From the IMG/VR virus record IMGVR_UViG_3300022752_004854, positions 1 to 28,144 of that record: 28,144 bases of DNA. The stretch is one strand, 5' to 3'. Below the pieces are notes generated by a model. The model was not told where the DNA came from and did not search any database. It saw only the letters and a program-made list of their open reading frames with translations. Positions 5,613 to 24,385 of this stretch are shown piece by piece (the stretch's first letter is position 1; each line of letters begins with the position of its first letter). This stretch comes from a virus. Made by a program: the position numbers and the translations under genes.

Positions 5613-6629
5613 ATGAATCTGATTCAGTCTACAATTCTGACATCGTTACCGGCTGGCCGTAAAAAGACACCATCTGGGTGGATGAGTTTCAATGCACCCT
5701 GTTGTGTGTACAATGGAGAATCTCCGGACAAAAGAAAACGTGGGGGAGTAATGACATCTGCGGATGGCACTCTGAGTTATCACTGTTTCAATTGTGGTTA
5801 CACAGCATCTTACGTGATTGGTCGTCGACTATCTGCCAAAATGAAAACACTCATGGGTTGGTTGGGCGTTGCTGACGACACAATTAAAAAATTAGCCATA
5901 GAAGCCATGCGTCATGAGGAAGCTGATATTAAGTATGAGAAAAAGAAATTCGTCTCATTTCAAAAAAAAGAATTGCCAAAGAACAGTTTTAAATTAGAAC
6001 ATTGGTTAGAAAAATACGTTGCAGAAGATCTTACAACCACACAGTATGAAAAAATAGATCAATTATTAAATTATTTAAAAAGTAGAGGTATAGCACCTGA
6101 GTGGTATGATTTTTTTTACTCTCCAGATCAAACTGCCGATTTCCATCGCAGAGTGATTGTGCCATTTTATTGGCATGGCGAAATAGTTGGATATACAGGA
6201 AGATTATTTGATACTCGAAATAAAGAGATAAAATATTATACCGAAACACAGCCAGGCTATGTGTTCAACCTGGATGCCCAGGACTGGCAAAGAAAGTTTG
6301 TGTTGGTAATGGAAGGACCATTTGATGCCATAACATTGGGCGGGGTGGCCATACTGGGATCAGAGATTAACGACACACAAAGAGAACTGATACAAGGATT
6401 GAACAGACAGGTAATTGTGGTCCCAGACAGGGATCAGCCAGGACAAAAACTCATAGATCAAGCCAAAGAGTTTGGCTGGAGCGTGGCATTTCCACAATGG
6501 CACGAATCGGTTGTAGACGTAGCAGAAGCTGTGTTAAAATATGGTAGATTGTTTACATTACAATCAATACTTAAATCTACAGAATCCACAGCATTAAAAA
6601 TAGATTTAAGAAGAAAGATTTATGGCTGA
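5613..6629 (+). CDS. DNA primase (T4 gp61/DnaG type), 338 aa
   Basis: Synthesises RNA primers for lagging-strand replication together with the replicative helicase encoded next to it. The N-terminus has a zinc-binding CHC2-type domain: Cys at 30-31 and HCFNC at 57-61. A linker leads to a TOPRIM domain with the catalytic Glu in VLVMEGPFDAI (about residue 234) and the acidic DxD in VVPDRDQPG (272-274). Length matches T4-like primases. The ATG follows the previous stop by a few bases with only a weak A/G-rich leader. The 3' end overlaps the helicase gene by 8 bp, so primase and helicase are translationally coupled. Confidence 0.92.
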   Translation: MNLIQSTILTSLPAGRKKTPSGWMSFNAPCCVYNGESPDKRKRGGVMTSADGTLSYHCFNCGYTASYVIGRRLSAKMKTLMGWLGVADDTIKKLAIEAMRHEEADIKYEKKKFVSFQKKELPKNSFKLEHWLEKYVAEDLTTTQYEKIDQLLNYLKSRGIAPEWYDFFYSPDQTADFHRRVIVPFYWHGEIVGYTGRLFDTRNKEIKYYTETQPGYVFNLDAQDWQRKFVLVMEGPFDAITLGGVAILGSEINDTQRELIQGLNRQVIVVPDRDQPGQKLIDQAKEFGWSVAFPQWHESVVDVAEAVLKYGRLFTLQSILKSTESTALKIDLRRKIYG

Positions 6630-8058
6630 TTACAGTTTTGATGTACAAAAATTATATTTAGAAATGCTGCTGGCAGATGCAGAGTCATTTGCAAGAGCAC
6701 AGAATATATTTGACAGCAACAGTTTTGATAGAAAATTACAACCTATTGCAAAATTTATTAAAGATTATGCAGAGCAATATAAAGTACTACCAGAAGTGGA
6801 GCAAGTTAATGCTAAACATGATATTAAATTAAAAGCAGCAAAAGATTTAGATCCATCACACTTTACATGGTTGTTGGATGAGTTTGAAACATTCTCTCGA
6901 CACAAGGCATTAGAAAAGGCCATATTAGAATCTGCAGATTTATTAGAGCATGGTGATTATGCTCCTGTGGAAGATAAGATTAAGGCAGCAGTTAACATTG
7001 GTTTAACTCGAGACATAGGTACAGATTATTTTGATGATCCTCGAGGCAGATTAGAAAGATTAAAAAATTCCAATGGACAGATCAGTACAGGATGGATTAA
7101 TATTGATAAGAAATTATTTGGTGGATTCAATCGTGGAGAGTTGAATATATTTGCAGGGGGTTCTGGAGCAGGTAAATCTTTATTCTTACAAAATTTAGCA
7201 GTTAACTGGGCCAGTGCAGGATTAAATTGTTGTTATATCAGTTTTGAATTGAGTGAGATGTTGGTAGCAATGAGATTGGATGCAATGATCACTAATATAC
7301 CCACAAGAAAGATATTCCCAGAAATTGACAACGTTGAAATGAAACTTAAAATGATTGCTAAAAAAGCAGGAAATTTACAAATCAAATATTTGCCATCAGG
7401 CAGCACAGTGTTAGATATTAAAACATACATAAAAGAATTAGAGCTTAAAACTAAAAAGAAAATAGATTGTATACTAATTGACTATCTAGATCTTATGATG
7501 CCAAAGAGTAAAAAAGTATCACCAGCAGATCTGTTTATCAAAGACAAATATGTGTCAGAAGAGTTAAGAAACTTGGCTGTAGAATCAAAAATGTTAATGG
7601 CCACAGCATCACAGTTAAACAGAGCATCTGTGGAAGAGATTGAATTTGATCACAGTCACATAGCAGGCGGATTGTCTAAAGTACAAACAGCAGACAACGT
7701 GTTTGGTATATTCACCAGCCGAGCAATGAAAGAGCGTGGCAGATATCAAGTGCAGTTTATGAAAACCAGAAGCAGCAGCGGTGTAGGACAAAAAGTGGAT
7801 TTAGAATTTGATGTGGATACACTGAGAATTAAAGATTTAATCGAAGAAGAAGGTCAGCATCAATTCAAAAAGCAAACTTCCACTGTGTATGATTCATTAA
7901 AACAAAAGAGCAAAATCGCAGGAGAAAGTACTCCCACAGATGCTAGACCGGAACCAGATCCTACTAGAGGTGATGAGGTTGGTAAAGTTAGAGCTACTGT
8001 GGAAGGCAGCAAATTAAGACAACTGCTCAACGATCTACACTCAGACGAAGAGCAATAA
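6622..8058 (+). CDS. Replicative DnaB-type DNA helicase (T4 gp41-like), 478 aa
   Basis: Hexameric 5'-3' helicase of the replication fork, partner of the primase. The N-terminal helical domain (1-130) resembles gp41/DnaB. The RecA-like core has Walker A GGSGAGKS at 179-186, an SFELSEMLVAMR motif (DnaB SLEMS-like), and Walker B CILIDYLDLM with Asp near 287. An SQLNR motif and a TRSSSGVG segment follow. The last 80 residues are polar and probably disordered. Overlaps the primase gene. It is the last gene of the replication block before a 284-bp non-coding interval. Confidence 0.93.
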   Translation: MADYSFDVQKLYLEMLLADAESFARAQNIFDSNSFDRKLQPIAKFIKDYAEQYKVLPEVEQVNAKHDIKLKAAKDLDPSHFTWLLDEFETFSRHKALEKAILESADLLEHGDYAPVEDKIKAAVNIGLTRDIGTDYFDDPRGRLERLKNSNGQISTGWINIDKKLFGGFNRGELNIFAGGSGAGKSLFLQNLAVNWASAGLNCCYISFELSEMLVAMRLDAMITNIPTRKIFPEIDNVEMKLKMIAKKAGNLQIKYLPSGSTVLDIKTYIKELELKTKKKIDCILIDYLDLMMPKSKKVSPADLFIKDKYVSEELRNLAVESKMLMATASQLNRASVEEIEFDHSHIAGGLSKVQTADNVFGIFTSRAMKERGRYQVQFMKTRSSSGVGQKVDLEFDVDTLRIKDLIEEEGQHQFKKQTSTVYDSLKQKSKIAGESTPTDARPEPDPTRGDEVGKVRATVEGSKLRQLLNDLHSDEEQ

Positions 8059-8261: not shown

Positions 8262-8290
8262 TTGATCTTTAATGCAACCTAAACTATAAT
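8262..8290 (+). promoter_or_regulatory. Sigma70-type promoter of the porin gene
   Basis: TTGATC (8262-8267), 17-nt spacer, perfect TATAAT (8285-8290). Predicted start near 8297, leaving a leader of about 46 nt that holds AAGGAG (8327-8332), 10 nt before the ATG at 8343. Confidence 0.8.
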
Positions 8291-8342
8291 CACGCATCTT
8301 GCTTTGGAATATCCAAACAAGAAAACAAGGAGAAAAATAGTA

Positions 8343-9401
8343 ATGAACAAGAAAACTATCGCTTTAGGCGTGTTAGCAATTGCAGCAATTGTATTGTCTG
8401 TGATTTTTACTGGCACAGCTAGAGCTCAAACAACTGCTCCATCTGTTTCTATATACGGTAGACTGGATGCCGGTGCTCAGAGTTTTGACACTGGTTCAGA
8501 AACTGTGATTAGATCAAGTGAGGGAGCATACCTACCTAGCATATTGGGATTTCGAGGCAACTCGACAGACCTGGGTGGTGTAAAATTCAACTTCCAATTA
8601 GAAGGTGGATTGAAACCCAACACTGCTCAAATAGGTTCTACCACAACCACAGGAGCAATATTTGCTCGTGAAGCTTGGGTAGGAATCAGCGGCGCAGCTG
8701 GAGAAATTAGATTCGGTACAACCGATTTAACAGATGCCACTGAATTGGATACCATAGCTAGACAATTCGGCAAATTTGGTAACCATGCTGTGAACGGATC
8801 AGCTATCGAGATTGGAGAAGATGTGGGCAATGTAATGAAATACATTTCGCCAACCATCGGTGGATTCCAAGCACAATTGGGTTACTCAGGTAATGGAGTA
8901 TCGAACACCACTGACACCACTGCAGCTATCAAGGGTGGATCTTTGGTCTACAACAATGGTCCATTGAAAGCAGGTGTAGGATATGCAGCGAAAGATGGTG
9001 TTTCAGATGCAGCAAAAACCAATGCAAAGAGCATCGGTGGTCTTTATGACTTTGGAATAGCATCTGTGGGTGCCGCTTATGTTTACGGAGACAACTCCAC
9101 AACATCAACAGTGAAATCCACTGCTAACATGTACTCTGTGAAAGTGCCTCTAGACAAGAATGGCTTGTCTGCCTATGGTTTATACACCACTGCCAAAGAT
9201 GGTGCACAAACCACTGCCAATGAGGGCAAAGGTTACACCATCGGTTTAACCAAAGAGTTAGCACCAGGTGCAGTATTGTACGGTGCGTACAGTTGGGTTA
9301 ACAATGATGCAAACTCTGCCATGTATACGAACGGCATGTCAGCGCCAGCAGCAGGTAAAGATCCAAAACTTACTGTGGTTGGAGTATCATACCAGTTCTA
9401 A
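8343..9401 (+). CDS. Phage-encoded outer-membrane porin (betaproteobacterial general-porin type), 352 aa
   Basis: A trimeric-type beta-barrel porin that would be exported to the host outer membrane and let small solutes diffuse. The start is fixed by AAGGAG; an upstream in-frame ATG at 8304 is disfavoured. The signal peptide (residues 1-28) has a basic start, a long hydrophobic core and a cleavage site after ARA. The mature protein begins with SVSIYGRLDAG, the hallmark first strand of Neisseria/Burkholderia-type porins, followed by LGFRG, LGGVKFNFQLEGG and AREAWVGISG as in that family. It ends in YQF, the C-terminal Phe recognised by the BAM machinery. Single gene with its own strong promoter. 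Host-derived origin is likely, and it could alter permeability or surface receptors during infection. Confidence 0.9.
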   Translation: MNKKTIALGVLAIAAIVLSVIFTGTARAQTTAPSVSIYGRLDAGAQSFDTGSETVIRSSEGAYLPSILGFRGNSTDLGGVKFNFQLEGGLKPNTAQIGSTTTTGAIFAREAWVGISGAAGEIRFGTTDLTDATELDTIARQFGKFGNHAVNGSAIEIGEDVGNVMKYISPTIGGFQAQLGYSGNGVSNTTDTTAAIKGGSLVYNNGPLKAGVGYAAKDGVSDAAKTNAKSIGGLYDFGIASVGAAYVYGDNSTTSTVKSTANMYSVKVPLDKNGLSAYGLYTTAKDGAQTTANEGKGYTIGLTKELAPGAVLYGAYSWVNNDANSAMYTNGMSAPAAGKDPKLTVVGVSYQF

Positions 9402-9413
9402 GGAACGGTTTTT

Positions 9414-9449
9414 AACATTGGGCGGGGTCATTGACTTTCGCCCAGTGTT
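9414..9449 (+). other. Stable hairpin after the porin gene, enclosing the -35 of the next promoter
   Basis: AACATTGGGCG (9414-9424) pairs with CGCCCAGTGTT (9439-9449) over 11 bp with one G-U, around a 14-nt loop containing TTGACT. No T run follows, so it is probably a 3'-end stabiliser or an operator-like palindrome rather than a classic terminator. Confidence 0.55.
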
Positions 9450-9459
9450 GTAGTACAAT
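9431..9459 (+). promoter_or_regulatory. Sigma70-type promoter of the 9513 operon
   Basis: TTGACT (9431-9436), 17-nt spacer, TACAAT (9454-9459); each box has one mismatch to consensus. Predicted start near 9466, followed by AGGAG (9501-9505) before the ATG at 9513. Confidence 0.75.
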
Positions 9460-9512: not shown

Positions 9513-9713
9513 ATGGGCATACACTACACATACAAGTCACAGAGTGGCGAGCGAAACCTGCGCAAACAGCAGAAACAAGAAGAGTTGCGTAGACGCAGCG
9601 ACCAAAGAAAGCAATCGAAAGAACAGACAGAACCCACACCAGATGTTTATGTGGTACCAGACAATGAAGTGGTAACACTGGATCATCTAACCAATCCGGA
9701 TCTTAAAAAGTGA
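9513..9713 (+). CDS. Small charged protein, 66 aa
   Basis: Well supported by AGGAG 7 nt before its ATG and by a near-consensus promoter upstream. Residues 10-42 are dominated by Arg, Lys, Gln and Glu and would form a highly charged helix. The C-terminal third is acidic (PDVYVVPDNEVVTLDHL). No family recognised. Its stop overlaps the GTG start of the radical SAM gene (GTGA), so the two are coupled; it may be a partner or substrate of that enzyme, though it lacks an obvious cleavable leader-core layout. Confidence 0.7.
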   Translation: MGIHYTYKSQSGERNLRKQQKQEELRRRSDQRKQSKEQTEPTPDVYVVPDNEVVTLDHLTNPDLKK

Positions 9714-10762
9714 TTGATTCGAGACTGTTTGAACACTATCAAATAGACATTAACAAGGACCTAGGCATGACGAAAAGATGTCCTAGGCCCTTCGACACAC
9801 TGCTGATCAACAAACAGGGCAGTTGTTATCTGTGCGAATGCACAGCATGGTTACCACAGAGTGTGGGCAACATACAAACCAAGAGCATAGAAGAAATATT
9901 GAACAGCGGTATTGCTGCTGCATTGAGAGGCTCTATCTCTGATGGTTCCTACAGATATTGCAATGAGAAGCAGTGTTCTTATCTGTTGGATGCTCGAGAT
10001 GCTGCTCCGTGGCCACTAACACTGCCCACCGAACAAATACGTAATATAAGATTGGCTATCGATGATTCTTGCAATCTCAGTTGTCCCAGTTGCAGAGTTA
10101 AAAAAATATTTTTAAGCTCAGGACGATCTTTAAAAATTCGCATGGACATGGCTGATACTGTGTTAGCATATCTGCAATCACAATCACATCCTATTCATGT
10201 GCATATAGGTTCAGACGGCGATCCTTTTGCCAGTCTTGTGTATCGACATTTCATGAGAAGAGCAGAGGATATGTCACACCTATCATTCAGTATACAAACC
10301 AATGGCTTGCTGATTCGACAGATGCATCACAGAATAAAAAACATATTCTCAAGATTGCGAACTCTCAATGTCAGCATCGATGGTGCTACCAAACACACCT
10401 ATGAGCGGTTAAGACAGGGAGGATCCCACGCAAAGATACTGGATAATCTTGCTTGCATAAAAGAAATAAAAAAACAATATGGTTTTGAATTTATTCTGCA
10501 TGTGGTGGTGCAGAAGGACAACTATCATGAAATGGAACAGATGGTGGATCTGGCCGAGCAGTATGGTGCTGACAGAATTTGGTTCAATAGAATTACCAAT
10601 TGGAACACTCATGCTAATTTTGCAGAGCTGGATGTGGTTGACGAGAACAATACACAGCACCCTCAATATCTAGAGATGCTGTCTAAAATAAAACATCGAG
10701 CAGCCGGGTACGATCAAAGATTTATAGAAATGCCCACACTGGTCAGCAAGACTTTTAAATAA
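9710..10762 (+). CDS. Radical SAM protein with N-terminal twitch/SPASM-like Fe-S domain, 350 aa
   Basis: A radical SAM enzyme binds a [4Fe-4S] cluster and cleaves S-adenosylmethionine to make a radical on its substrate. The cluster motif CX3CX2C is C121-C125-C128 in DDSCNLSCPSC. Before it lies a cysteine-rich auxiliary domain: C24 in CPRPFDTL, then C39, C42 and C44 in GSCYLCEC, and C84 and C89. The phrase VGNIQTKSIEEIL is typical of SPASM/twitch proteins. Here the auxiliary domain precedes the core, as in the N-terminal-twitch radical SAM group. Start is GTG overlapping the previous stop; an internal ATG at 9767 is an alternative. Substrate unknown. Confidence 0.85.
   Translation: MIDSRLFEHYQIDINKDLGMTKRCPRPFDTLLINKQGSCYLCECTAWLPQSVGNIQTKSIEEILNSGIAAALRGSISDGSYRYCNEKQCSYLLDARDAAPWPLTLPTEQIRNIRLAIDDSCNLSCPSCRVKKIFLSSGRSLKIRMDMADTVLAYLQSQSHPIHVHIGSDGDPFASLVYRHFMRRAEDMSHLSFSIQTNGLLIRQMHHRIKNIFSRLRTLNVSIDGATKHTYERLRQGGSHAKILDNLACIKEIKKQYGFEFILHVVVQKDNYHEMEQMVDLAEQYGADRIWFNRITNWNTHANFAELDVVDENNTQHPQYLEMLSKIKHRAAGYDQRFIEMPTLVSKTFK
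10754..10761 (+). promoter_or_regulatory. Late-type promoter box TTTAAATA
   Basis: One mismatch from the late consensus; lies over the stop of the radical SAM gene, 5 nt before the ATG at 10767. Weak on its own. Confidence 0.3.
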
Positions 10763-10766
10763 ACAT

Positions 10767-11327
10767 ATGAAACCATTCCATCCACTGACCTGTCATTCGC
10801 TATCGGAAATACAACAACAGGTGCTGCTGTGGATACAATCAAAAAATCCTGCAGTGTTGACCAGCAATCGTTTATGGAACAAAATTAACACTTCTGATCT
10901 AGTAAAGTCCTGTCCTGCACTGATACAATATTGTCAATCACTGGATTTAAAAATACGTGAAGTGGCTCTAACAATCGTTAATGCAAAAGAAGATGCAGAC
11001 CTGCACATCGACGAGTTACCGGTCACTGCCAAGATCAACATACCCATACTGAACACTGAGCATACTTTTAATAGATGGTATGAGATACCTGCAGAGCTAT
11101 TGGCAGCAACACAGCCCGTAATAAATGAGTTTGGAAAAAAATATTACACTTTTAAAAATGTAGATTACTCAAAATTACGATTGTTAGGGGAAATAGAGTT
11201 ACTAACTCCTGTGGTGTTTAACAGTCAGATAGCACACAACATTGTGTTGGACGAAGATTGTCGTTTTCCTAGAATTGTGCTGTCTTGTACTTTCTTTAAA
11301 GAACCGCTGTATCTTTTAGAAGATTAA
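10767..11327 (+). CDS. Putative Fe(II)/2-oxoglutarate oxygenase-like protein, 186 aa
   Basis: The pattern of a double-stranded beta-helix oxygenase can be seen: H80-x-D82 in DLHIDELP, a KINIPILNTE strand, then H157 in SQIAHNIV and R169 in FPRIVLSCTF, matching the HxD...H...R layout in which two His and one Asp hold iron and the Arg binds 2-oxoglutarate. The N-terminal 70 residues are helical and unassigned. Starts 4 bp after the radical SAM gene on the same strand and is probably co-expressed. Convergent with the next gene, with a 4-bp overlap. Hydroxylation of a peptide or small molecule is plausible but unproven. Confidence 0.55.
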   Translation: MKPFHPLTCHSLSEIQQQVLLWIQSKNPAVLTSNRLWNKINTSDLVKSCPALIQYCQSLDLKIREVALTIVNAKEDADLHIDELPVTAKINIPILNTEHTFNRWYEIPAELLAATQPVINEFGKKYYTFKNVDYSKLRLLGEIELLTPVVFNSQIAHNIVLDEDCRFPRIVLSCTFFKEPLYLLED

Positions 11328-12421
11328 AAGTTTTTCATGCCTTGCTCGTTTAGATAGGTGCTCATTATCTCTCGAAGAGTATTTTTATCTCTAGACTTAG
11401 GTGCACACAATCCACAAGAACAACGATTGGCTCGACATTGTATCACAGGAAACTCTCCTTTTGCTAACATAGTGTCTACTCTATTAATGTATTCATCCAT
11501 GTTGTCCATGGTGGCCAATGGTCCCAGTGTGCCTTTTATGGTATTGTGACAATCTCTGTTGGAATAAAATTCTCGAGTCATGGAATTGGCTGTAAGAAAG
11601 AACCAACTCACACTGCAGTACCATCCATTGAAGTTTACTTCTTGTGGAAAATAGTTGTGTGTTTCTTTTATGTTTCTATCAAAACACATCTTTCTTCCTC
11701 CGCAACAGGCTCGGCCAGCTCCAGATAATTTTTGTAGTTTTTCTTCTTTTAAATCAATGTTATAAAATGTTTTTAGGTATTCTACTTGTTCTCGATTGTA
11801 AAAATATGGTCCTTCCAGTATTTTAGGACGAAATATTATTTTTTCTTCTTTGCACCACTCTATAAAAGCAACACAGTCTTGCCAATACTCCGGTTGATTG
11901 TGCATCAGCACCACCATGTCATAGTTTACACGAGTGTCTCTCATGTAGATTAAATTATTTTTTACATTCTGTTTTAATTTGTCTGGTCCTTCAGAATGAT
12001 AACTGACTGTGATACCTTCAATATTATCACAAACATATTTCCATTTTTCCAGAGGACTGGTAGCATTGGTGGTTAATCTTCTATTAAGATGCCAACGATC
12101 TTGATAGGGTTTATACAGTTCCGATGATGCTGTTAGAATGCGTTCCATTTCAGGGTGATATAGAACCTCGCCGCCCAATAGATTCATTATGGCAGTTTTG
12201 GATTTTTCTTTTTTATACTTGGAAATTACATCCACATAACGATACATCTGCTCCAACATCTTTAAGCAGTCATCCACAGGAGGATGTGGTATTTTATTAT
12301 TGTGTCCCCAATCTGTGGAACAATAAGAACAATCATAATTACACTTCAATGTAACTTTCCAATCCAACAGTATACTCATAGTTTGGGCTGGTAGATAAGC
12401 AGGCTCTATGGTTTGTATCAT
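11324..12421 (-). CDS. Radical SAM protein with C-terminal cysteine-rich domain, 365 aa
   Basis: The radical SAM motif is near the N-terminus, C27-C31-C34 in KCNYDCSYC, followed by the LLGGEVLYHP segment (the GGE motif that contacts SAM). Unlike the other four radical SAM proteins in the window, the auxiliary cysteines are C-terminal: GRACCGGRKMC around residues 235-245 and CRANRCSCGLC at 329-339, a SPASM-like arrangement for extra Fe-S clusters. The ATG at 12421 follows a late-type AATAAATA box. It faces away from the SDR gene across a 47-bp divergent region. Substrate unknown. Confidence 0.85.
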   Translation of the reverse strand: MIQTIEPAYLPAQTMSILLDWKVTLKCNYDCSYCSTDWGHNNKIPHPPVDDCLKMLEQMYRYVDVISKYKKEKSKTAIMNLLGGEVLYHPEMERILTASSELYKPYQDRWHLNRRLTTNATSPLEKWKYVCDNIEGITVSYHSEGPDKLKQNVKNNLIYMRDTRVNYDMVVLMHNQPEYWQDCVAFIEWCKEEKIIFRPKILEGPYFYNREQVEYLKTFYNIDLKEEKLQKLSGAGRACCGGRKMCFDRNIKETHNYFPQEVNFNGWYCSVSWFFLTANSMTREFYSNRDCHNTIKGTLGPLATMDNMDEYINRVDTMLAKGEFPVIQCRANRCSCGLCAPKSRDKNTLREIMSTYLNEQGMKNF

Positions 12422-12430
12422 GATTGAAAA

Positions 12431-12438
12431 TATTTATT
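12431..12438 (-). promoter_or_regulatory. Late-type promoter box AATAAATA (minus)
   Basis: Read on the minus strand, 9 nt before the ATG at 12421. Forms a divergent pair with the box at 12454. Confidence 0.5.
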
Positions 12439-12453
12439 GGCTACATTTTTGTC

Positions 12454-12461
12454 TGTAAATA
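12454..12461 (+). promoter_or_regulatory. Late-type promoter box TGTAAATA
   Basis: One mismatch from TATAAATA, 7 nt before the ATG at 12469, the same spacing as at 4043. Confidence 0.45.
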
Positions 12462-12468
12462 ACTGATA

Positions 12469-13032
12469 ATGAAAATCGCTATAACAGGACATACCGGTGG
12501 TATTGGTAAATCTTTTTCTAAATCTCTTGCTGCTCGTGGACACGAAATTATTGGTATAAGTCGCAGTGGAGGAGAGAATATTCGAAGAATTGAACACACT
12601 GCTTCCATTATAGAACCCTGTGATCTGTTTATAAACAATGCACAATCTATGTTTGCCCAAACAGAATTATTGTATGAAGTTTGGAAAAGATGGCAAGGAC
12701 AAAAAAAATATATTTGGAATATCAGCACAGCAATGACACAGTCTCCAATTAACTCTGCTCCGGATGGACAGGATGATATTGCTATGAGTTTATATCGAAT
12801 ACAGAAATTATCATTAGAGGAAGCATCTAAACAACTGAGTCATAAGAATGTTTGGCCCAGTATATCTGTCATACGTCCGGGCGGTGTGGCCACACAAAAA
12901 GAATGGAACAACGAAAACAAACAAGATGTTGATGAGTGGACCAAATCTGTCATTGATATTTTTACTGCTCATCCTAATACTCACATACCAGACATATCCG
13001 TAACATATAGAAAAACAAAACTAGAGCTGTAA
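12469..13032 (+). CDS. Short-chain dehydrogenase/reductase, 187 aa
   Basis: An NAD(P)-dependent oxidoreductase of the SDR family. The Rossmann motif TGHTGGIG (6-13) binds the cofactor, INNAQ (56-59) is the NNAG equivalent, Ser86 in NISTAM and the YRIQK motif (Y109, K113) supply the catalytic residues, and VIRPGGVAT is the post-catalytic proline segment. At 187 residues it is shorter than the usual 240-260, having lost loops and the C-terminal substrate region, but keeps every core motif. Stop and next start overlap (TAATG), coupling it to the following radical SAM gene, so both probably act on the same substrate. Confidence 0.85.
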   Translation: MKIAITGHTGGIGKSFSKSLAARGHEIIGISRSGGENIRRIEHTASIIEPCDLFINNAQSMFAQTELLYEVWKRWQGQKKYIWNISTAMTQSPINSAPDGQDDIAMSLYRIQKLSLEEASKQLSHKNVWPSISVIRPGGVATQKEWNNENKQDVDEWTKSVIDIFTAHPNTHIPDISVTYRKTKLEL

Positions 13033-14174
13033 TGGACGCTAAGAATTATATAAAAAATAAAAGCTTCTGTCCTTTGCCGTGGACAGGATTTATTGTGCAT
13101 CAAAACGGAGATGTAAGAAATTGCGTGTTGAGCAAAAGCAAAATAGGCAATCTCAAAGACAATTCTATACAAGAAATAGTCAATGGAGAAAAAAATAATG
13201 AGATTAAAAAACAAATGTTATCCAATAATAAACCAAAGAGTTGTGACGGTTGTTATCGATTAGAAGAAAACAAAAACAGTTTTGATATTGTTAGTCAAAG
13301 AATATATTATCTTAAAGAGTTAAAATCAGTAGATCCTACTCTATATAATTCTGTAAACAATTTTAATTTGCATACAGTGGATCTAAGATGGACTAACCAA
13401 TGTAATCAAGCCTGTGTGTATTGTGGTCCACACAATAGTAGCATGTGGGTAAAAGAGATTGGCAGTGAAGATCTCATGAGCCAAGAGAAAAAACAACAAC
13501 TAAAAGAATATGTTTTTGCCAATGTTAAAAATTTAAAAAATGTTTATCTTGCTGGCGGAGAACCATTATTGATGAACGAGAACCAAGAGTTTTTAGAATT
13601 ACTAATGAAAGAAAATCCAAATGTAACACTAAGAGTTAATACTAATCTATCTGCTACAGAAACCAAAGTGGGCAGAATGATTAAACAGTTTAAAAATGTA
13701 CATTGGATTGTGAGTGTGGAATCTACAGGTGCAGCATATGATTATATTAGATACGGTGGTTCATGGAACGCATTTTGTAACAATCTTGAAGAGTTAAAAA
13801 ACACAACAGATCATAAAATTTCATTCAACATGTTATACTTTGTTTTAAATTATATTAAATTATTTGATTGCGTGGATTTTTTAAGAAGTGCAGGGTTCCA
13901 TGAAAATTCTTTTGTTATTGGTCCTCTGTATGGGCCAGAGTATCTAAATATTTTAAATCTACCACAAGAAAAAATAGATCAAGCAAAAAAGATATTAGAG
14001 GATAGAATACAAAGTAAACCTGGTTATTTTTTACAGGACAGTTATTCAAATCTATTAAAATACTTAGACACGACTTATGAAAAAAATCTACAAAGTACAT
14101 TTGATGGGTTGGCTAAATTAGATACAAGAAGAAAATTAGACAGTAAAAAAATATTTGGAGAAGTGTATGATTAA
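13032..14174 (+). CDS. N-terminal-twitch radical SAM protein, 380 aa
   Basis: The radical SAM cluster motif is C124-C128-C131 (QCNQACVYC), followed by the YLAGGEPLL segment that binds the SAM methionine part. An N-terminal Fe-S domain precedes it: C13 in CPLPWTGFIV, C31 after NGDVRN, then C71 and C74 (SCDGC), with the IGNLKDNSIQEIV phrase typical of twitch/SPASM domains. No C-terminal cysteine cluster is seen. The gene is coupled to the SDR upstream and overlaps the sulfotransferase-like gene by 8 bp, forming a four-gene run (SDR, radical SAM, sulfotransferase-like, radical SAM). Substrate unknown. Confidence 0.87.
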   Translation: MDAKNYIKNKSFCPLPWTGFIVHQNGDVRNCVLSKSKIGNLKDNSIQEIVNGEKNNEIKKQMLSNNKPKSCDGCYRLEENKNSFDIVSQRIYYLKELKSVDPTLYNSVNNFNLHTVDLRWTNQCNQACVYCGPHNSSMWVKEIGSEDLMSQEKKQQLKEYVFANVKNLKNVYLAGGEPLLMNENQEFLELLMKENPNVTLRVNTNLSATETKVGRMIKQFKNVHWIVSVESTGAAYDYIRYGGSWNAFCNNLEELKNTTDHKISFNMLYFVLNYIKLFDCVDFLRSAGFHENSFVIGPLYGPEYLNILNLPQEKIDQAKKILEDRIQSKPGYFLQDSYSNLLKYLDTTYEKNLQSTFDGLAKLDTRRKLDSKKIFGEVYD

Positions 14175-14739
14175 AGTTGTGGAATTGTTGCCTGGCAAAT
14201 TTGTTCTTCCAATATTTAAAAATGGGTTATCCAGCATAGAAGCCTATGCCAAAGAAAAAAACATTAAATGGGTAATCAATGAACAACTTAAAAATATAGA
14301 CACAATAACTGTATTTTTACGAGAACCTGCAGAACGTTTTGTATCTGGAGTACACAGTTTTATAGAGTTTGAAAAAAGAAAAAATAAAGAGCTAGATTAT
14401 AACACAATGTTGTATTGTATAGAGAACCATTCTGTACGTAATGAACACTTCATGCCACAGTTTTTCTTTTTAAAAAATCTCACAAAATATTTTACTGGAT
14501 TGGTAGACTTGCGAGGAGTAAGTGAACTTAAAGAGTGGATACCAAATAGAAACAAACCTGCAATACCAGACATAACCAATGAGCAAAAAGAAAGAGTATC
14601 TAAAATCAAATACGAAGATTTAAAATATGACAATTTACTTTTTGAAAGACACATGTATAAGATTGCTGATACCTTTTATGTTAGTAAAAAAATAAACATA
14701 AGATCGTTGGTTGCAGAGATTGAATATGCACTGTCCTAG
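14167..14739 (+). CDS. Sulfotransferase-family-like protein, 190 aa
   Basis: Two PAPS-binding signatures of sulfotransferases are visible: the 5'-phosphosulfate loop in LPIFKNGLSSI (residues 13-23) and the 3'-phosphate motif in FLREPAERFVSG (about 50-61). Such enzymes move a sulfo group from PAPS to a sugar, lipid or protein hydroxyl. The protein is short (typical 250-300 aa). A TTG at 14155 could extend the frame, but ATG 14167 has GGAGAAG just upstream and is preferred. Overlaps the neighbouring radical SAM genes on both sides, so it is tightly coupled. It may be a divergent or reduced member; activity is inferred. Confidence 0.68.
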   Translation: MIKVVELLPGKFVLPIFKNGLSSIEAYAKEKNIKWVINEQLKNIDTITVFLREPAERFVSGVHSFIEFEKRKNKELDYNTMLYCIENHSVRNEHFMPQFFFLKNLTKYFTGLVDLRGVSELKEWIPNRNKPAIPDITNEQKERVSKIKYEDLKYDNLLFERHMYKIADTFYVSKKINIRSLVAEIEYALS

Positions 14740-15751
14740 ACTCGATCATTTCGCTAGAATAAATCACAATGGTAAGATTGGCAAATGTGGACACATGACT
14801 GGAGCAAAAGAATTTGATTCTTTTGATGAAATGCAAAATAGCTCATGGTTAAAAAACATAAAAGAAAAAATGCAAGATCAACAGTGGCCTGCTGAATGTG
14901 TGCGTTGCCGAATGACTGAAGAGTCTACTAATACCAGCATACGTTTGGATATGATAGAGAGAGATAGAATATTAAGTGCGATTAAAAAAGATTATCTAAT
15001 AGTTGGGGGAGTATTGGATAATATTTGTAACAGTGCTTGTCAAACTTGCCACAGCGGGCTTAGTACCAAGATAGGTAGCCTGTCTTCTAAAGATTATGAG
15101 AAGGTCAACAACTATGAAACATTTTTTACTTTTCCCCAAGATAGAATTTGTGAAGTAGATGTCAACGGAGGAGAACCTACTGCCAGTCCTAACTATAAAA
15201 AATTATTAAAGAATCTACCAAAGTCTGTAAAAATTGTAAGAATCAATACCAACGGTTCAAAAGTTATTGCAGAGTTAGAAGAGTTACTATCTCAAGGCAT
15301 ACGAGTAATTGTTACTTTAAGTTTTGATGGTGTGGGTAATGTGCATAACTATGTGAGATGGCCTGTGCTTTGGGAAAACTTTAATAGTAATGTAAAAAAA
15401 TATATTACACTAAGAGAAACATATTCCAATTTAAGATTAAACTTTTGGACCACTGTAAGCTCTTTGAATGTAGGAGATTTAAAAAATATTATCGATTACG
15501 CAACACAACAACAAATAGATCATGCATATGGTTTTTGTATTAGACCCGATGTGTTGGACATCAGACACGAGAACAAATTAACCGTAGCTGCTAAAGAATC
15601 TTTATCCAAAATAGATAACGAGTTATTAAATTCTATTGCAAATAAATGCGGTTCTTTTAAAAAGAACAATGATACAGAATTAAAAAAATTTATTTCTTCT
15701 CAAGACGCTTTAAGAAATATTGATTATAAAATTTATTTTAACGAAGTTTAG
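14726..15751 (+). CDS. N-terminal-twitch radical SAM protein, 341 aa
   Basis: Radical SAM motif C101-C105-C108 (ICNSACQTC), followed by VNGGEPTASP (GGE motif). The N-terminal auxiliary Fe-S domain has C3 (CPRLDHFARI), C21 (NGKIGKC), C58 and C61 (ECVRC), the same layout as the proteins at 13032 and 25415. The ATG at 14726 lies inside the previous gene (14-bp overlap) after a GAG-containing purine stretch; a TTG at 14711 is less likely. Its 3' end overlaps by 14 bp the convergent SGNH-hydrolase gene. Similarity in layout suggests a paralogous set acting on related substrates. Confidence 0.87.
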   Translation: MHCPRLDHFARINHNGKIGKCGHMTGAKEFDSFDEMQNSSWLKNIKEKMQDQQWPAECVRCRMTEESTNTSIRLDMIERDRILSAIKKDYLIVGGVLDNICNSACQTCHSGLSTKIGSLSSKDYEKVNNYETFFTFPQDRICEVDVNGGEPTASPNYKKLLKNLPKSVKIVRINTNGSKVIAELEELLSQGIRVIVTLSFDGVGNVHNYVRWPVLWENFNSNVKKYITLRETYSNLRLNFWTTVSSLNVGDLKNIIDYATQQQIDHAYGFCIRPDVLDIRHENKLTVAAKESLSKIDNELLNSIANKCGSFKKNNDTELKKFISSQDALRNIDYKIYFNEV

Positions 15752-18848: not shown

Positions 18849-19442
18849 CTAAAACCCGTGCTCCAATAATTCATGGATGCCCGTATATAGAAAGTATACA
18901 GCAAGAACGGAAAATAGCCAACGGCTATAAAAGAATATTTTTCGTACTGGCAATTTTTTAATTTGGTAGTCTGCAACCTTAATGGATATTACCAAAACCA
19001 CCAAACCCACCAAAATGCCCAAAACAATCAAACTGAGATCGGGGTCTTTGACGTATATGCCTGTTAGGAACAGCAACACTTCTATGCCTTCTCTAAAGAT
19101 TATAAAGAACGCTGCTGTACCCAATGCTAATATGCTGGTTTTAGGTAGGTCTTTTACATGCTGTGCAGCACCATGACAAAACCATGCTACCCAACCCAAT
19201 AAAGCACCAGTTAATATGGCGATTAAAGCTTCAAAGCGCTCTAAATTTACGTCAGATCCCAACCAAGCTATAGTTGAAGCACCCAGCAATAGAGTGGCTA
19301 AAAAACCCACTATAATGCTGTACCATATGGCTCGTGTTTGTGCAGAATTACCACTAGTTGTAGCCAGTGCTAGGACCACAATTAACCACGTTTCGAATCC
19401 TTCTCGAAATATTACGAATGCAGAACTTAATAATGATGTCAT
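18849..19442 (-). CDS. FTR1-family iron permease, 197 aa
   Basis: An integral inner-membrane permease of the FTR1/EfeU family, which transports iron. Both hallmark REGxE motifs are present: REGFE (13-17) in the first helix and REGIE (117-121) in the fourth, where the Glu residues bind iron. About six transmembrane helices can be drawn; the family usually has seven and about 270 aa, so this is a shortened form lacking the EfeO/EfeB partners in this window. AAAAAGG lies 5 nt before the ATG, and a late-type AATAAATA box lies at 19463-19470. The stop codon touches the first base of tRNA-Thr, so the gene and both tRNAs probably share a transcript. Confidence 0.88.
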   Translation of the reverse strand: MTSLLSSAFVIFREGFETWLIVVLALATTSGNSAQTRAIWYSIIVGFLATLLLGASTIAWLGSDVNLERFEALIAILTGALLGWVAWFCHGAAQHVKDLPKTSILALGTAAFFIIFREGIEVLLFLTGIYVKDPDLSLIVLGILVGLVVLVISIKVADYQIKKLPVRKIFFYSRWLFSVLAVYFLYTGIHELLEHGF

Positions 19443-19462
19443 CTAACCTTTTTAATTTTCAA

Positions 19463-19470
19463 TATTTATT
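19463..19470 (-). promoter_or_regulatory. Late-type promoter box AATAAATA (minus)
   Basis: Read on the minus strand, 20 nt before the FTR1 ATG, with AAAAAGG in between: late-promoter geometry with a short leader and ribosome binding site. Confidence 0.5.
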
Positions 19471-19516
19471 GTATGGTATTTTCGTGGTTGCGTCAATTGG
19501 CTTTTCATAATAATAT

Positions 19517-19524
19517 ATTAAATA
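19517..19524 (+). promoter_or_regulatory. Late-type promoter box ATTAAATA
   Basis: 6 nt before the lipoprotein ATG at 19531. A weaker sigma70-like pair (TTGCGT 19488, TAATAT 19511, 17-nt spacer) overlaps. Confidence 0.35.
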
Positions 19525-19530
19525 GCATCT

Positions 19531-19677
19531 ATGAAAAATATATTAATTGCTTTATCATTATTTTTAATAATTGGTTGTGCTTCTACGACAGATCAGCCTA
19601 AAGCAGATGCTCCAAAGAACTCTTTAGAAACTCTTGGCTCAGCACTAGGACAAGCACTAAAAAATTTAAGATTCTAA
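19531..19677 (+). CDS. Small lipoprotein, 48 aa (possible outer-membrane spanin)
   Basis: A classic lipoprotein signal: MK, a hydrophobic stretch, and the lipobox LIIGC with the lipidated Cys at residue 16. The 32-residue mature part is Asp/Lys/Pro-containing, then helical (LETLGSALGQALKNL). Too small for an enzyme. Phage o-spanins of the Rz1 type are short lipoproteins, but an adjacent inner-membrane spanin is not seen, so this remains a suggestion; it could instead be an entericidin-like or superinfection-exclusion lipoprotein. Stops overlap the convergent gene by 4 bp. Confidence 0.6.
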   Translation: MKNILIALSLFLIIGCASTTDQPKADAPKNSLETLGSALGQALKNLRF

Positions 19678-19865
19678 TTTTTACTGTTCCATTTATCCAG
19701 CATGCCTTGCAATGAGCTGCCGTGTAATTCTGCAGGATCTTGCTCTACTCCGTGCTTCATGCCGTAACCAGAACTGCGATTGCTGCGATGATGTAGTTTA
19801 GAATCGTATGTGGAATTGTTATTAGGGTTTTTGTTTTTTTTGAATTTTTTTCTTTTATTAAACAT
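19674..19865 (-). CDS. Hypothetical small protein, 63 aa
   Basis: A basic, Asn/Ser/His-rich N-terminal half (NKRKKFKKNKNPNNN), probably disordered, leads to a possibly conserved C-terminal stretch (GMKHGVEQDPAELHGSSL). No family recognised. The ATG lies 1 bp after the stop of the methyltransferase gene on the same strand, preceded by GGAAAGAAA, so it is co-transcribed and probably translated. Basic tails of this kind suggest nucleic-acid or virion packaging contact, which is speculative. Confidence 0.6.
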   Translation of the reverse strand: MFNKRKKFKKNKNPNNNSTYDSKLHHRSNRSSGYGMKHGVEQDPAELHGSSLQGMLDKWNSKN

Positions 19866-19866
19866 T

Positions 19867-20520
19867 TTATTTTCTTTCCAATCCTGTCCATGTACCTAAC
19901 TGTTTAATTACATACTGAGTGCATGGGTAGTTAATTTCTGTTGTTTTTATTTTTAATTTTTCTGCATCTTTTATTATGTATTGGTCTACTTCTGATATTT
20001 GTCCTCTTGCCCATATCTCTGTCCATGCTCCTCGATACTTTGGCTTGAATCCTTGCTCATCTAAAAATCTATTTGGTTTAGTGTAATCGTTGCTATTAAA
20101 GTCATCTAAAATTATTAATGCATCATAGTTCATATGTGGCAAAATAAATCTACAATCTATTTCACAGGTGGGTATTTTATCATCTCCATCAATGAGAATC
20201 ACTCCAAGATTACTGGGTATTTCTTCTAATTTTAATTGCCAGCTTGGTTTACGAATATGTTTGACTGCATGTTTGGGCCATAACCTCCACATGCTTTGAT
20301 ACAATAGATCTTGTTCTTGAGGATCAAGTAAAGTTATCGGCGAGGTAGGTTGTGCTTCTGCAAATATAGAGGCACTGTGGCCGTTATGACAGCCAATTTC
20401 AAAATAACTCACTGGGGGTAAGTTTTTATACAAATGCCATAGGCATAGAGCACCTTCTAGATCTCTCCAGCCTTCTTTGGCTAAGGTAAAATATTTTGTT
20501 TCTGTAAAAGACTGATACAT
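19867..20520 (-). CDS. Class I SAM-dependent methyltransferase-like protein, 217 aa
   Basis: A Rossmann methyltransferase fold is indicated by motif I YFEIGCHNGHSAS (ExGxxxG that binds SAM), an acidic LLDP after the next strand, the ILIDGDD segment and LIILDDFNS, the pattern of the Methyltransf_24/cephalosporin-hydroxylase group. These act on sugars or small molecules; the target here is unknown. It has a near-consensus minus-strand promoter (20536-20563) overlapping the promoter of the divergent MIP18 gene. Followed at 1 bp by the 63-aa gene. Confidence 0.8.
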   Translation of the reverse strand: MYQSFTETKYFTLAKEGWRDLEGALCLWHLYKNLPPVSYFEIGCHNGHSASIFAEAQPTSPITLLDPQEQDLLYQSMWRLWPKHAVKHIRKPSWQLKLEEIPSNLGVILIDGDDKIPTCEIDCRFILPHMNYDALIILDDFNSNDYTKPNRFLDEQGFKPKYRGAWTEIWARGQISEVDQYIIKDAEKLKIKTTEINYPCTQYVIKQLGTWTGLERK

Positions 20521-20535
20521 TAGTAATTTAGTAAT

Positions 20536-20563
20536 ATTGTAACATAGGTTGTGACGCTGTCAA
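20536..20563 (-). promoter_or_regulatory. Sigma70-type promoter of the methyltransferase gene (minus)
   Basis: TTGACA (20563-20558) and TACAAT (20541-20536), 16-nt spacer, with a TG one base before the -10 (extended -10). Start near 20529, leaving a leader of about 9 nt. Confidence 0.7.
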
Positions 20564-20577
20564 AGTCATGTTATACT
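20549..20577 (+). promoter_or_regulatory. Sigma70-type promoter of the MIP18/SufT-like gene
   Basis: TTGTGA (20549-20554), 17-nt spacer, TATACT (20572-20577) with a TG extended -10. The ATG at 20583 is 5 nt after the -10, so the mRNA would be leaderless. Overlaps the divergent promoter. Confidence 0.65.
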
Positions 20578-20582
20578 GTAGC

Positions 20583-20951
20583 ATGAATGATATTACCAAA
20601 GATGTTAGTCAAACTCTCGCAGATGTGATTGATCATGAAGCGACTCGATTGCAATACATTCATACTATAAAAGACAAATTAAGGACTGTGTTTGATCCTG
20701 AATTGCCCATCAATATTTACGATCTAGGATTAATATATGATATCAAAGTGACAGAGCAAGTGGAATGTTACATATTACACACGCTGACATCAGCATTTTG
20801 TCCTGCAGCAGATATCATACCTGTGGATATACAGAATGCTGTGCAAAGCATACCCAACATTGCAAAATGTTCAGTACGTATTACCATGTCCCCTCAGTGG
20901 AGTCCGCAAAGTCTAGATCCAGAGATACGACAACTAATACTGGGCTGGTAG
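20583..20951 (+). CDS. MIP18/DUF59 (SufT/PaaD-like) Fe-S assembly protein, 122 aa
   Basis: Family hallmarks are clear: VFDPELPINIYDLGLIYDI (compare DPEIPxNIxDLGLVY), a central strand pair, LTSAFCPAADIIP with the conserved Cys (compare TxxxCP), and a C-terminal SPQWSPQSLDPEIRQLIL (compare PPWxxxxIsxexrxxL). Relatives help mature Fe-S proteins, as SufT in bacteria, or act in the phenylacetate oxygenase complex (PaaD). ATG 20583 is chosen over 20568, which lies in the -10 region. In this phage a role in supplying clusters to the five radical SAM enzymes is an attractive inference. Confidence 0.85.
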   Translation: MNDITKDVSQTLADVIDHEATRLQYIHTIKDKLRTVFDPELPINIYDLGLIYDIKVTEQVECYILHTLTSAFCPAADIIPVDIQNAVQSIPNIAKCSVRITMSPQWSPQSLDPEIRQLILGW

Positions 20952-20955
20952 TACC

Positions 20956-20963
20956 TATAAATA
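20956..20963 (+). promoter_or_regulatory. T4-type late promoter box, exact TATAAATA
   Basis: Exact late consensus, followed by a leader containing AAGGAG (20979-20984) and the ATG at 20991; the clearest late-promoter geometry in the window. Confidence 0.65.
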
Positions 20964-20990
20964 TTCATACAACTAAACAAGGAGAACTCC

Positions 20991-21101
20991 ATGTTAACAA
21001 TAGCGTTCATTCTAGGTTTTGCTGCAGGTTGGTATATCAACGAGAAAGTTGAAAACCTTGGCGAAAAGTTAAATCCGATTAATTGGTTCAAGAAAAAATA
21101 A
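20991..21101 (+). CDS. Micro membrane protein, 36 aa
   Basis: Begins 6 nt after a strong AAGGAG and follows an exact late-promoter box, so expression is well supported. One membrane helix (residues 2-15, LTIAFILGFAAGWY) is followed by a polar amphipathic segment and an FKKK end. Function unknown; size and topology fit small phage membrane regulators or virion-associated peptides. Followed by a strong hairpin. Confidence 0.65.
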   Translation: MLTIAFILGFAAGWYINEKVENLGEKLNPINWFKKK

Positions 21102-21113
21102 AAATCACTTTAC

Positions 21114-21139
21114 TATCGGGGGAATTATTTCTCCCGATA
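21114..21139. terminator. Hairpin between convergent micro-genes, probable bidirectional terminator
   Basis: TATCGGGGGAA pairs with TTCTCCCGATA over 11 bp (one G-T) around a TTAT loop. T-rich stretches lie a few bases away on both strands but are not immediate. Confidence 0.5.
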
Positions 21140-21149
21140 CTTCTTCAAA

Positions 21150-21260
21150 TTAAAATTTAATTTTTTTATCGATGGTCTTTTTTTGTCCTAGTTTGTATCC
21201 TAGTCCAAATGCCATGGCTACGAAAGCTGCTACTAATAATGTGTGCCAAAAGTAAAACAT
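21150..21260 (-). CDS. Micro membrane protein, 36 aa (minus)
   Basis: A single helix (residues 2-22, FYFWHTLLVAAFVAMAFGLGY) with a basic tail (KKTIDKKIKF). The ATG lies 5 nt after a CATAAATA late-type box at 21266-21273. It mirrors the 36-aa gene across the hairpin: same length, same helix-then-lysine design, opposite strand. No family recognised. Confidence 0.5.
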   Translation of the reverse strand: MFYFWHTLLVAAFVAMAFGLGYKLGQKKTIDKKIKF

Positions 21261-21265
21261 AAAAC

Positions 21266-21273
21266 TATTTATG
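21266..21273 (-). promoter_or_regulatory. Late-type promoter box CATAAATA (minus)
   Basis: One mismatch from TATAAATA, 5 nt before the ATG at 21260. Confidence 0.45.
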
Positions 21274-21282
21274 AAAAAACAA

Positions 21283-22338
21283 TTAGAATTTATAACGAAT
21301 TGAGCCTATGATTTGACTGCCGTAATCTGTGTGTGTGCCTGTGTATACGGAAGTTTTTTCTTTATCGTGCAGATACAAACCAAACTCCAATCCCTTCCTT
21401 TTGTCAGGTCTTTTATCTTGATCATCCTGTGTCATTATTTGATAAACGAGCCCATAGTAATTGCCTGTGTAACCTAGGTCGTCGTGCTCGGTTCTGTGTG
21501 CTGTGAGATAAAGATTATCATTAACACTGTAAAGTCCACCTATATCAAATCTTTTTTTACCTGACAATCCTGTGTCTTTGTCGTCCCATAATTCAATTCC
21601 CCATATGGCTGGAATGCCCCAACGATGCAGTGCTCCTCCAATAGAGAGACCTTCTTGGTGTTTGCTGGTTGTGTAGTATCCTGCTGTTGCTGGAGAATCA
21701 ATTCTCATATAAGATATATCAAACAATCCCAACACTCCCACAGTGGCAGATGAGTAATAGGTATTGGTTAGATTGTCAAATCCTAACACCACACCATATG
21801 GCATGTCTTTCTTTAAACGATAGGAATCAAATTCAAACTCGTTGTCCCATTGGAATCCGCCAATTGCCAGCACTGCTTTTTCTCCATGATCTATTCTGCT
21901 GTTGGGCTGAGTGATAATGATGGGTGCTCCAATTTTGGGAGTCTTTGCAAATCCTAATCTCTGAGCATCTGTTTCTCCCAGATACAATCTATAATAATCG
22001 TTGCCCAATCCTATCTGTTTATTAACCAGTGAGTTGTCTTTGGTATGGTCGGCATCGTAATATGAGTCGTATAGGCTCGATGCTCCAATCCAATTCACAT
22101 AAGGATTGTTTAAGGTTTGTTGTATGCCAATCTGTATTTCTGCTCGAGAATCAAAACCGTTGTCATAGGTTCTGTCATCATAGTAGGCCTCGATATTGCC
22201 GTGAATGAATAGTCCTCTAGGCAAATCAATTTTGTTAGATTCTAAGTTTTGAATTCTTTTTTCTAGGTCTGCTATTTTCTTCTCATCAGCTGAAGCCATC
22301 GCAGACAACAACAACATTACCAATATTATTTTTTTCAT
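21283..22338 (-). CDS. Second outer-membrane porin-like beta-barrel, 351 aa
   Basis: The signal peptide is MKKIILVMLLLSAMASA, with cleavage likely after ASA; the longer frame from 22392 is rejected because it would put 18 extra residues before the signal. The mature N-terminus holds a short coiled coil (EKKIADLEKRIQNLES), as in trimeric porins with periplasmic coils, then alternating aromatic-polar strands (GNIEAYYDDRTYD, AEIQIGIQQ) and a final strand SIRYKF with the C-terminal Phe used by BAM. Different from the porin at 8343. It starts 7 bp after the bilin-reductase stop, so it is the distal gene of that operon. A pore or binding barrel in the host outer membrane is the likely role. Confidence 0.78.
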   Translation of the reverse strand: MKKIILVMLLLSAMASADEKKIADLEKRIQNLESNKIDLPRGLFIHGNIEAYYDDRTYDNGFDSRAEIQIGIQQTLNNPYVNWIGASSLYDSYYDADHTKDNSLVNKQIGLGNDYYRLYLGETDAQRLGFAKTPKIGAPIIITQPNSRIDHGEKAVLAIGGFQWDNEFEFDSYRLKKDMPYGVVLGFDNLTNTYYSSATVGVLGLFDISYMRIDSPATAGYYTTSKHQEGLSIGGALHRWGIPAIWGIELWDDKDTGLSGKKRFDIGGLYSVNDNLYLTAHRTEHDDLGYTGNYYGLVYQIMTQDDQDKRPDKRKGLEFGLYLHDKEKTSVYTGTHTDYGSQIIGSIRYKF

Positions 22339-22345
22339 TAATGTA

Positions 22346-23029
22346 TTATACTTTAGGAAATAGATTATCCGCAAGGAATACTTTGACATCATCTTCTGGT
22401 AATCCCAAAGACAGCATGGCTCGAGGCACGTGTGGATTTAGTTGCTGTTGCTCACAATAATAATTCTGTCCTTGTTTTATTTCTTCCAATCGATCGTCTC
22501 CGTTGTAATTTGGTAATTGTTCTAGGTAGTATTTTAAAGTATATTCTGCCATACCACAGATCTGATCCAACTCTTTTTCTTCTTGTATATTGCCTGCTGC
22601 TATCATACCATCGCTGAATATGTTTTTGGCCCACTGGGGCAATTCTCTTTCTTTATTAGGTTTATAAGATTTGGTATTGTCGATAAACCATTGAGTCAGA
22701 GGATGACCTTTTCTTTTCAATGAAGATATATCGTGAAATGCTCCTGTTACTTTATTTTGTCCTGACACAATATCAAACCCATAGATCGGTCCACTGTTAT
22801 GCAACACAGGAAACATGCACACGTGTATGATCCATAGTTTTTTACTTTCTCTAGCATCTACCACTTCCACATGAGCTCTCCTCAAACTATCGCTTCTCCA
22901 AGTACGATTAGTCCAACCATATTTGGTATTATTAAATCTTTCCATGCTGGGTTCGTGATATTCTTCGCAATTTTGATTTAAAATATTAACAATATTATCT
23001 TTACACTGTATAAGTTTTTTCCAAATCAT
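22346..23029 (-). CDS. Ferredoxin-dependent bilin reductase (PcyA/PcyX-like), 227 aa
   Basis: Reduces biliverdin IX-alpha to a phycobilin with electrons from ferredoxin. Landmarks of the family follow the order in Synechocystis PcyA: RRAHVEV with Glu55 (equivalent to E76), WIIHVCMFP with His69 (H88), YGFDIVSG with Asp86 (D105), then LPQWAKNIFS, and QGQNYYCEQQQLN near the C-terminus. All three PcyA proton-transfer residues are kept, whereas PebS has Asn in place of the His. PcyX, known from oceanic virus metagenomes, is a PcyA relative making phycoerythrobilin; motif reading cannot tell the product. Heads an operon with the porin at 21283; a late-like TATAAGTA lies at 23039-23046. Confidence 0.88.
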   Translation of the reverse strand: MIWKKLIQCKDNIVNILNQNCEEYHEPSMERFNNTKYGWTNRTWRSDSLRRAHVEVVDARESKKLWIIHVCMFPVLHNSGPIYGFDIVSGQNKVTGAFHDISSLKRKGHPLTQWFIDNTKSYKPNKERELPQWAKNIFSDGMIAAGNIQEEKELDQICGMAEYTLKYYLEQLPNYNGDDRLEEIKQGQNYYCEQQQLNPHVPRAMLSLGLPEDDVKVFLADNLFPKV

Positions 23030-23093
23030 GATTTAAAATACTTATATGAAAAAATTTTATGATAAAAATTCAAAAGACTAAGTATCATTAAAT

Positions 23094-23101
23094 TATAAAC
23101 A
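23094..23101 (+). promoter_or_regulatory. Late-type promoter box TATAAACA
   Basis: One mismatch from TATAAATA, 17 nt before the MFS ATG, in an 89-bp AT-rich divergent region that shows no other clear element. Confidence 0.35.
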
Positions 23102-23118
23102 AACAAATTTTATATATT

Positions 23119-24381: not shown

Positions 24382-24385
24382 AAAA

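Follow-up and report, generated by a model that had tools for sequence, protein, structure and literature searches.

Uncultivated phages carry a betaproteobacterial-type porin as a single-gene cassette and probably rebuild the surface of the infected cell with it

The window analysed here, the whole 28,144-nucleotide stretch of the IMG/VR record IMGVR_UViG_3300022752_004854, carries at 8343–9401 a porin gene of which near-identical relatives of this phage hold differing versions; the virus, thus, probably remodels the surface of infected cells. Judged from the DNA, the gene is intact, lies in a cassette of its own, is under purifying selection with fast amino acid change and, as far as contig ends tell, is swapped as a whole allele; from these features we infer the timing, level, location and function of the protein. 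The reading that we favour, in which host porins are replaced early in infection with a benefit at the cell surface, is a composite one, to which we give slightly less than even odds (about 0.45).

The open reading frame on the plus strand runs from the ATG at 8343 to the stop at 9399–9401, without internal stops, and encodes 352 amino acids. The Pfam family Porin_4 (PF13609) matched it with E 1.2e-34, at 121 bits against a cut-off of 27 and over model positions 2–309 of 310, and the porin of a second viral locus, G004, scored 123 bits; no PHROG or NCBIfam model matched. Residues 1–28 (8343–8426), ending in TARA before a Gln, were judged by eye to be signal-peptide-like in the window protein, and this N-terminus is the most divergent part of the porin, with a mean identity of 32% among six porin types. 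The C-terminal residue is Phe, as it is in all 8 complete porins. A profile of four phage porins, run against solved structures, found only the Omp32 and Omp38 sequences (best E 3e-18), and an AlphaFold model, whose confidence is modest (pLDDT 58.9, pTM 0.60), shows the 16 barrel strands that the earlier note had proposed to look for (17 DSSP elements, two of which were joined by reading), with a helix at 135–147 between strands 5 and 6, a candidate L3 region in which the pLDDT falls below 50. When the model was compared with the PDB by Foldseek, Omp32 and BpsOmp38 were the top folds (E 2e-20, TM 0.69–0.74), and the 50 PDB matches listed were porins or proteins made from porins. By tblastn, 43 plasmid records matched at E 1e-5 or better, all from betaproteobacterial genera; the identity was 25–28% among the 20 matches listed. 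Among 50,697 named phage records a single one matched, at 25%. The gene is, on these sequence matches, an intact betaproteobacterial-type porin, as the earlier note had held.

That the porin is phage-borne, also claimed there, agrees with its surroundings. Upstream, strong PHROG matches identify phage genes of the UvsW, primase and gp41/DnaB types, the last being the neighbouring helicase (6622–8058, plus strand; PHROG 19, E 1e-72), and a radical SAM/SPASM gene recognised by Pfam follows (9710–10762, plus strand); the relatives L001 and L004 have helicase, porin and radical SAM gene arranged as in the window. The porin was found on 17 further IMG/VR contigs, collected by three porin-query scans of the viral collection and by a helicase scan (best 80 of 217 relatives). 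It stands directly after the helicase in the window and its kin; other contigs have it one or two genes further on, and in L038/L039 it is next to an FTR1 gene. Of 37 related records, all of them fragments, 26 gave no porin match, which makes the gene optional. Lying among phage genes and kept in related phages, it qualifies as an auxiliary (host-derived) phage gene. The description of the phage as T4-like is a loose one: the helicase of the nearest isolate, Pseudomonas phage PA5oct, is only 50% identical, and one of 18 related records, a set of fragments, yielded a capsid gene of the T4 Gp23 type, and that one was not among the close kin of the window.

Between the window and L001, dS is 0.493 for the helicase and 0.492 for the porin, as expected if the porin had been inherited together with its neighbour. 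In the same pair dN/dS is 0.193 for the porin and 0.000–0.034 for seven neighbours; the corresponding values are 0.180 and 0.006–0.037 for the window and L002, and 0.139 and 0.007–0.032 for L001 and L002, while in a fourth pair, the window and L004, the porin was saturated. These ratios indicate a working protein under purifying selection whose amino acids change several times faster than those of its neighbours, and values of 0.14–0.19 led us to reject a relaxed or dead gene. A passenger or chimeric host gene with no function for the phage might be suspected from the GC content, about 0.44 in the porin versus 0.35 in the phage backbone preceding it; on the other hand, the gene occupies the same place in other assemblies, its dS equals that of the helicase, it is under purifying selection and its expression signals are conserved, so that we regard this explanation as very improbable. 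In particular, a chimera with host DNA, which the earlier note had named as the finding that would overturn its claim, is contradicted by the same gene order in another assembly, by the 17 further contigs and by the helicase-like dS, and was rejected.

Upstream of the gene, a sigma-70-type promoter was recognised by consensus scan at 8262–8290 (plus strand), with TTGATC at 8262–8267, a 17-nt spacer and TATAAT at 8285–8290, as had been noticed before. A scan of 3 kb gave 11 promoter-like sites versus 7.0 ± 3.1 in shuffled sequences, the porin promoter being one of two with 10/12 matches; since shuffles give similar numbers of sites, a single match is weak evidence and it is conservation that carries the weight. 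Of the 17 porin contigs, 16 have TATAAT as the −10 box and one has TACAAT, and a −35 box with at least 4/6 matches is present in 12 of 17; of the remaining five, L009 was scored from the wrong −10. Just 3′ of the −10, near the predicted 5′ end of the mRNA, a stem-loop is predicted at 8297–8322 (plus strand), and it leaves free the ribosome binding site AAGGAG at 8327–8332 (plus strand), ten bases before the ATG. In 14/14 distinct leaders the stem starts 4–9 nt after the −10 hexamer. Of 500 shuffles of the window leader, 6 fold equally well; taken singly, 7 of the 14 leaders have no more than 13 such shuffles in 500, the rest 30 to 112. The order −10, leader stem-loop, Shine-Dalgarno, start codon is constant in the 17 contigs, and −10, leader stem and ribosome binding site are kept at all positions of the porin, whether it follows the helicase directly, stands one or two genes further on or is next to FTR1. 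When the whole viral collection was searched for a 21-base pattern of the −10 and leader, 11 stretches had it, each on a contig of the lineage of the window; 8 have the porin behind them and 3 lie on contigs that stop just before the start codon.

Directly after the porin stop a second stem-loop is predicted at 9413–9450 (plus strand). A strong 3′ stem-loop is found in 8 of 8 complete loci, with no more than 2 of 500 shuffles folding as well in each case; among 13 other gene ends in the window only that of the small ORF beside the porin approaches this (z −3.3), the remainder giving −1.6 to 1.9. Counts of covariation were given up for the leader stem, where the MAFFT alignment sets the stems in different registers and most stem sequences hardly vary, and likewise for the 3′ stem; the conservation of the stems is therefore one of position and energy rather than of counted compensatory pairs. 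A search for known RNA families found only two tRNAs in the window. As its sequence is organised, the porin is a single-gene cassette, whose promoter and stem-loops at both ends travel with it wherever it lies in the phage genome. A 5′-terminal stem-loop is a known stabiliser of the ompA mRNA (works cited in PMC7509114), and by analogy the stem-loops may make the porin mRNA long-lived. The 3′ stem-loop also contains the −35 of a further promoter-like site, TTGACT-17-TACAAT (9431–9459, plus strand; consensus scan), which precedes a small ORF at 9513–9713; the overlap, within 9413–9459, apparently exists likewise in L001, L004 and L009, and the opening of the stem-loop or of the promoter may affect the other.

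The L013 helicase is 99.0% identical to that of the window and 99.6% to that of L002, but over the 82 amino acids compared the L013 porin is 59–61% identical to those of the window and L002. The L036 porin matches it at 96%, although the L036 helicase reaches just 92.3%. Similarly, the L014 helicase is 96.7% identical to that of the window, and the start of its porin (41–46 amino acids) is 87% identical to L004 versus 37% to the window. In L013 the DNA is L001-like up to the −35 region and L036-like from about 28 bases earlier, the two likenesses overlapping at the promoter. L013 and L035, from the same metagenome, have the porin type in common with a DNA identity of 94% and not 100%, which speaks against a simple mis-join. 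Both L013 and L014 stop inside the porin, so that both swaps rest on contig ends, and among complete contigs no swap was seen at a helicase identity above 97%. The contig ends themselves are unevenly placed: among 31 contigs with a helicase at least 90% identical (30 from the helicase search, best 80 of 217 relatives, and L011 from the porin search), 9 stop within the porin gene and another 3 shortly ahead of the start codon, and ends within 1.1 kb of the helicase lie downstream in 18/31 and upstream in 3/31 (Fisher p 1e-4). Such breaks are to be expected from assemblers where the population varies; some of the 18 fall in other cargo genes, and it is thus the site that is variable, not the porin alone. 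The site after the helicase is in this way marked as an assembly-break point, which hides variable cargo. From these contig ends, phages with 97–99% identical helicases carry different porin alleles, and the alleles are exchanged.

No diversification confined to the loops was seen, the strands being about as variable: between the two most similar complete porins identity is 85% in strands and 87% in loops. In a topology taken from the modest model, two predicted outer loops, L6 and L8, rank among the most conserved parts (71–72% identity); L1, L4 and L5 are the least conserved (51, 48 and 41%, respectively) and the strands stand at 60%.

According to the reading that we favour, the sigma-70 RNA polymerase of the host would read the cassette from its own promoter from the start of infection, the stem-loops at both ends would give a long-lived single-gene mRNA, and the protein would cross by Sec and be inserted by the host BAM as the predicted 16-strand barrel. 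During infection the phage barrel would then replace host porins whose synthesis has ceased. The phage would most probably profit through a changed surface, either by depriving competing phages of their porin receptor or by matching the barrel to the envelope of the host strain, and such a gain would explain why whole alleles are swapped among near-identical phages; recombination in the conserved promoter region could swap the alleles whole among phages otherwise nearly the same. Allele exchange, fast change and the precedent of the lambdoid phages speak for superinfection exclusion. The conserved L6 and L8 count against it, since a surface target of competitors should vary mainly in the loops. 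A PADLOC search returned no match, a result that bears only on the proteins in that library. The favoured reading as a whole is also weakened by the porin being optional, by each swap resting on a contig end and by the five promoters for which the scan gave no −35 of at least 4/6. A stronger form, in which the phages possess a serotype-like system with a mobile cassette, alleles exchanged at the promoter and the choice of porin deciding which rivals enter, seems to us unlikely.

Matching to the host could also act alone, the allele fitting the LPS, the BAM or the co-trimerising porins of the host strain and swaps following host shifts with no exclusion at all. The divergence of signal peptide and membrane strands, as large as that of the loops, and the exchange of alleles as whole cassettes would suit this; yet two scans of bacterial genome contigs found neither the host allele nor other host relatives (exact short peptides were required, so that distant donors would escape), and we hold it to be quite doubtful. 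Nutrient inflow is a real, if tentative, possibility: the porin would keep or widen the path of solutes through the outer membrane and phage transporters of the inner membrane would carry them in. Besides a second barrel-like protein, the window encodes an iron permease (FTR1) and an MFS transporter of the MHS type, FTR1 recurs in 9 of 23 related records and adjoins the porin in L038/L039, one relative has a full TctABC tricarboxylate transporter and, in the available part of PMC8115048, a porin stands beside amtB and glnK in other phage contigs. This linkage to transporters is loose, as several FTR1 records lack a porin and TctA occurs in only 1 of 23 related records; moreover, a mere supply pore would not predict the swapping of whole alleles. 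The eyelet arginines of Omp32, R38, R75 and R133, correspond in the profile alignment to I67, R109 and D160 of the window porin. With two of the three replaced, an Omp32-like anion filter is unsupported, and with only R75 kept no substrate can be inferred.

The best match by both profile and fold, Omp32 of Delftia/Comamonas acidovorans and Omp38 of Burkholderia (PDB 1e54, 2fgq, 8wv0), is only about 22% identical to the window porin, which, unlike them, is phage-borne. The NmpC and Lc (phage PA-2) porins of lambdoid phages are enterobacterial OmpC-type proteins (Porin_1) of temperate phages. They resemble the present case as outer-membrane porin genes of phages, with their own promoter, that change the porin make-up of the host, which is here a prediction, and they differ in family, since Pfam gives Porin_4 only for the window porin. 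As described in the accessible part of PMC12197685, the ipeX RNA arises from a lambdoid phage porin transcript; by analogy with ipeX in E. coli, the stem-loop-flanked transcript could yield a 3′-derived RNA that lowers host porins. An OmpL-like porin beside glnK and amtB has been reported from phage contigs of oxygen-depleted ocean water (PMC8115048); as far as the available text goes, it shares with ours the uncultivated phage contigs and the intact barrel, but is Flavobacteriales-like and adjoins amtB, whereas the window porin is betaproteobacterial-type and a single-gene unit. The database entry A0A6J5L4P1, 'OmpC outer membrane protein (porin)' of an uncultured Caudovirales phage, has the same general fold (E 2e-17) at 18% identity. 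Phage-borne porins are thus already known, from lambdoid phages, from the ocean and, in the sources at hand, from databases. In the accessible parts of the literature we came upon no family of betaproteobacterial-type phage porins whose expression unit is conserved and whose alleles are exchanged, and we do not claim that such a family is unpublished. In these sources phage porins appear as single notes; here a family can be traced through a lineage, with its cassette, differing sites, fast change and exchange, which makes it testable whether phages compete by re-dressing infected cells.

Some further genes deserve mention. Within 17 kb, at 9710–15751 and 25415–26743, the window has five or more radical SAM genes, of which several carry SPASM domains, with no obvious peptide substrate; the matches of 11324–12421 and 14711–15751 are below the Pfam cut-off. 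The G004 porin contig (L112 and L113) is of different make-up, with uroporphyrinogen decarboxylase, HSP70 and a 1-Cys peroxiredoxin, and its phage nature rests mainly on IMG/VR, PHROG matches being found in 2 of 7 proteins. The tripartite tricarboxylate transporter on the contig of L001 is complete, with TctA, TctB and TctC (L109:5340–8269). At 21283–22344 (minus strand) the window encodes a second signal-peptide protein, ending RYKF, with relatives in 4 viral loci and placed beside bilin genes in G013 and G016; it matched no Pfam family and gave only weak general porin matches, its structure model (pLDDT 45.7) was too poor to use, and it is probably another outer-membrane barrel. This gene belongs to a cluster at 18849–24976 that comprises the FTR1 permease, a SufT-like protein, the second barrel, a bilin reductase (Fe_bilin_red, 1.6e-17; 60% to Pelagibacter phage Mosig), the MFS transporter and a heme oxygenase. 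Pairs of hemO and pcyX are known in phages, according to the available part of PMC11480375, and the whole block recurs in G013 and G016.
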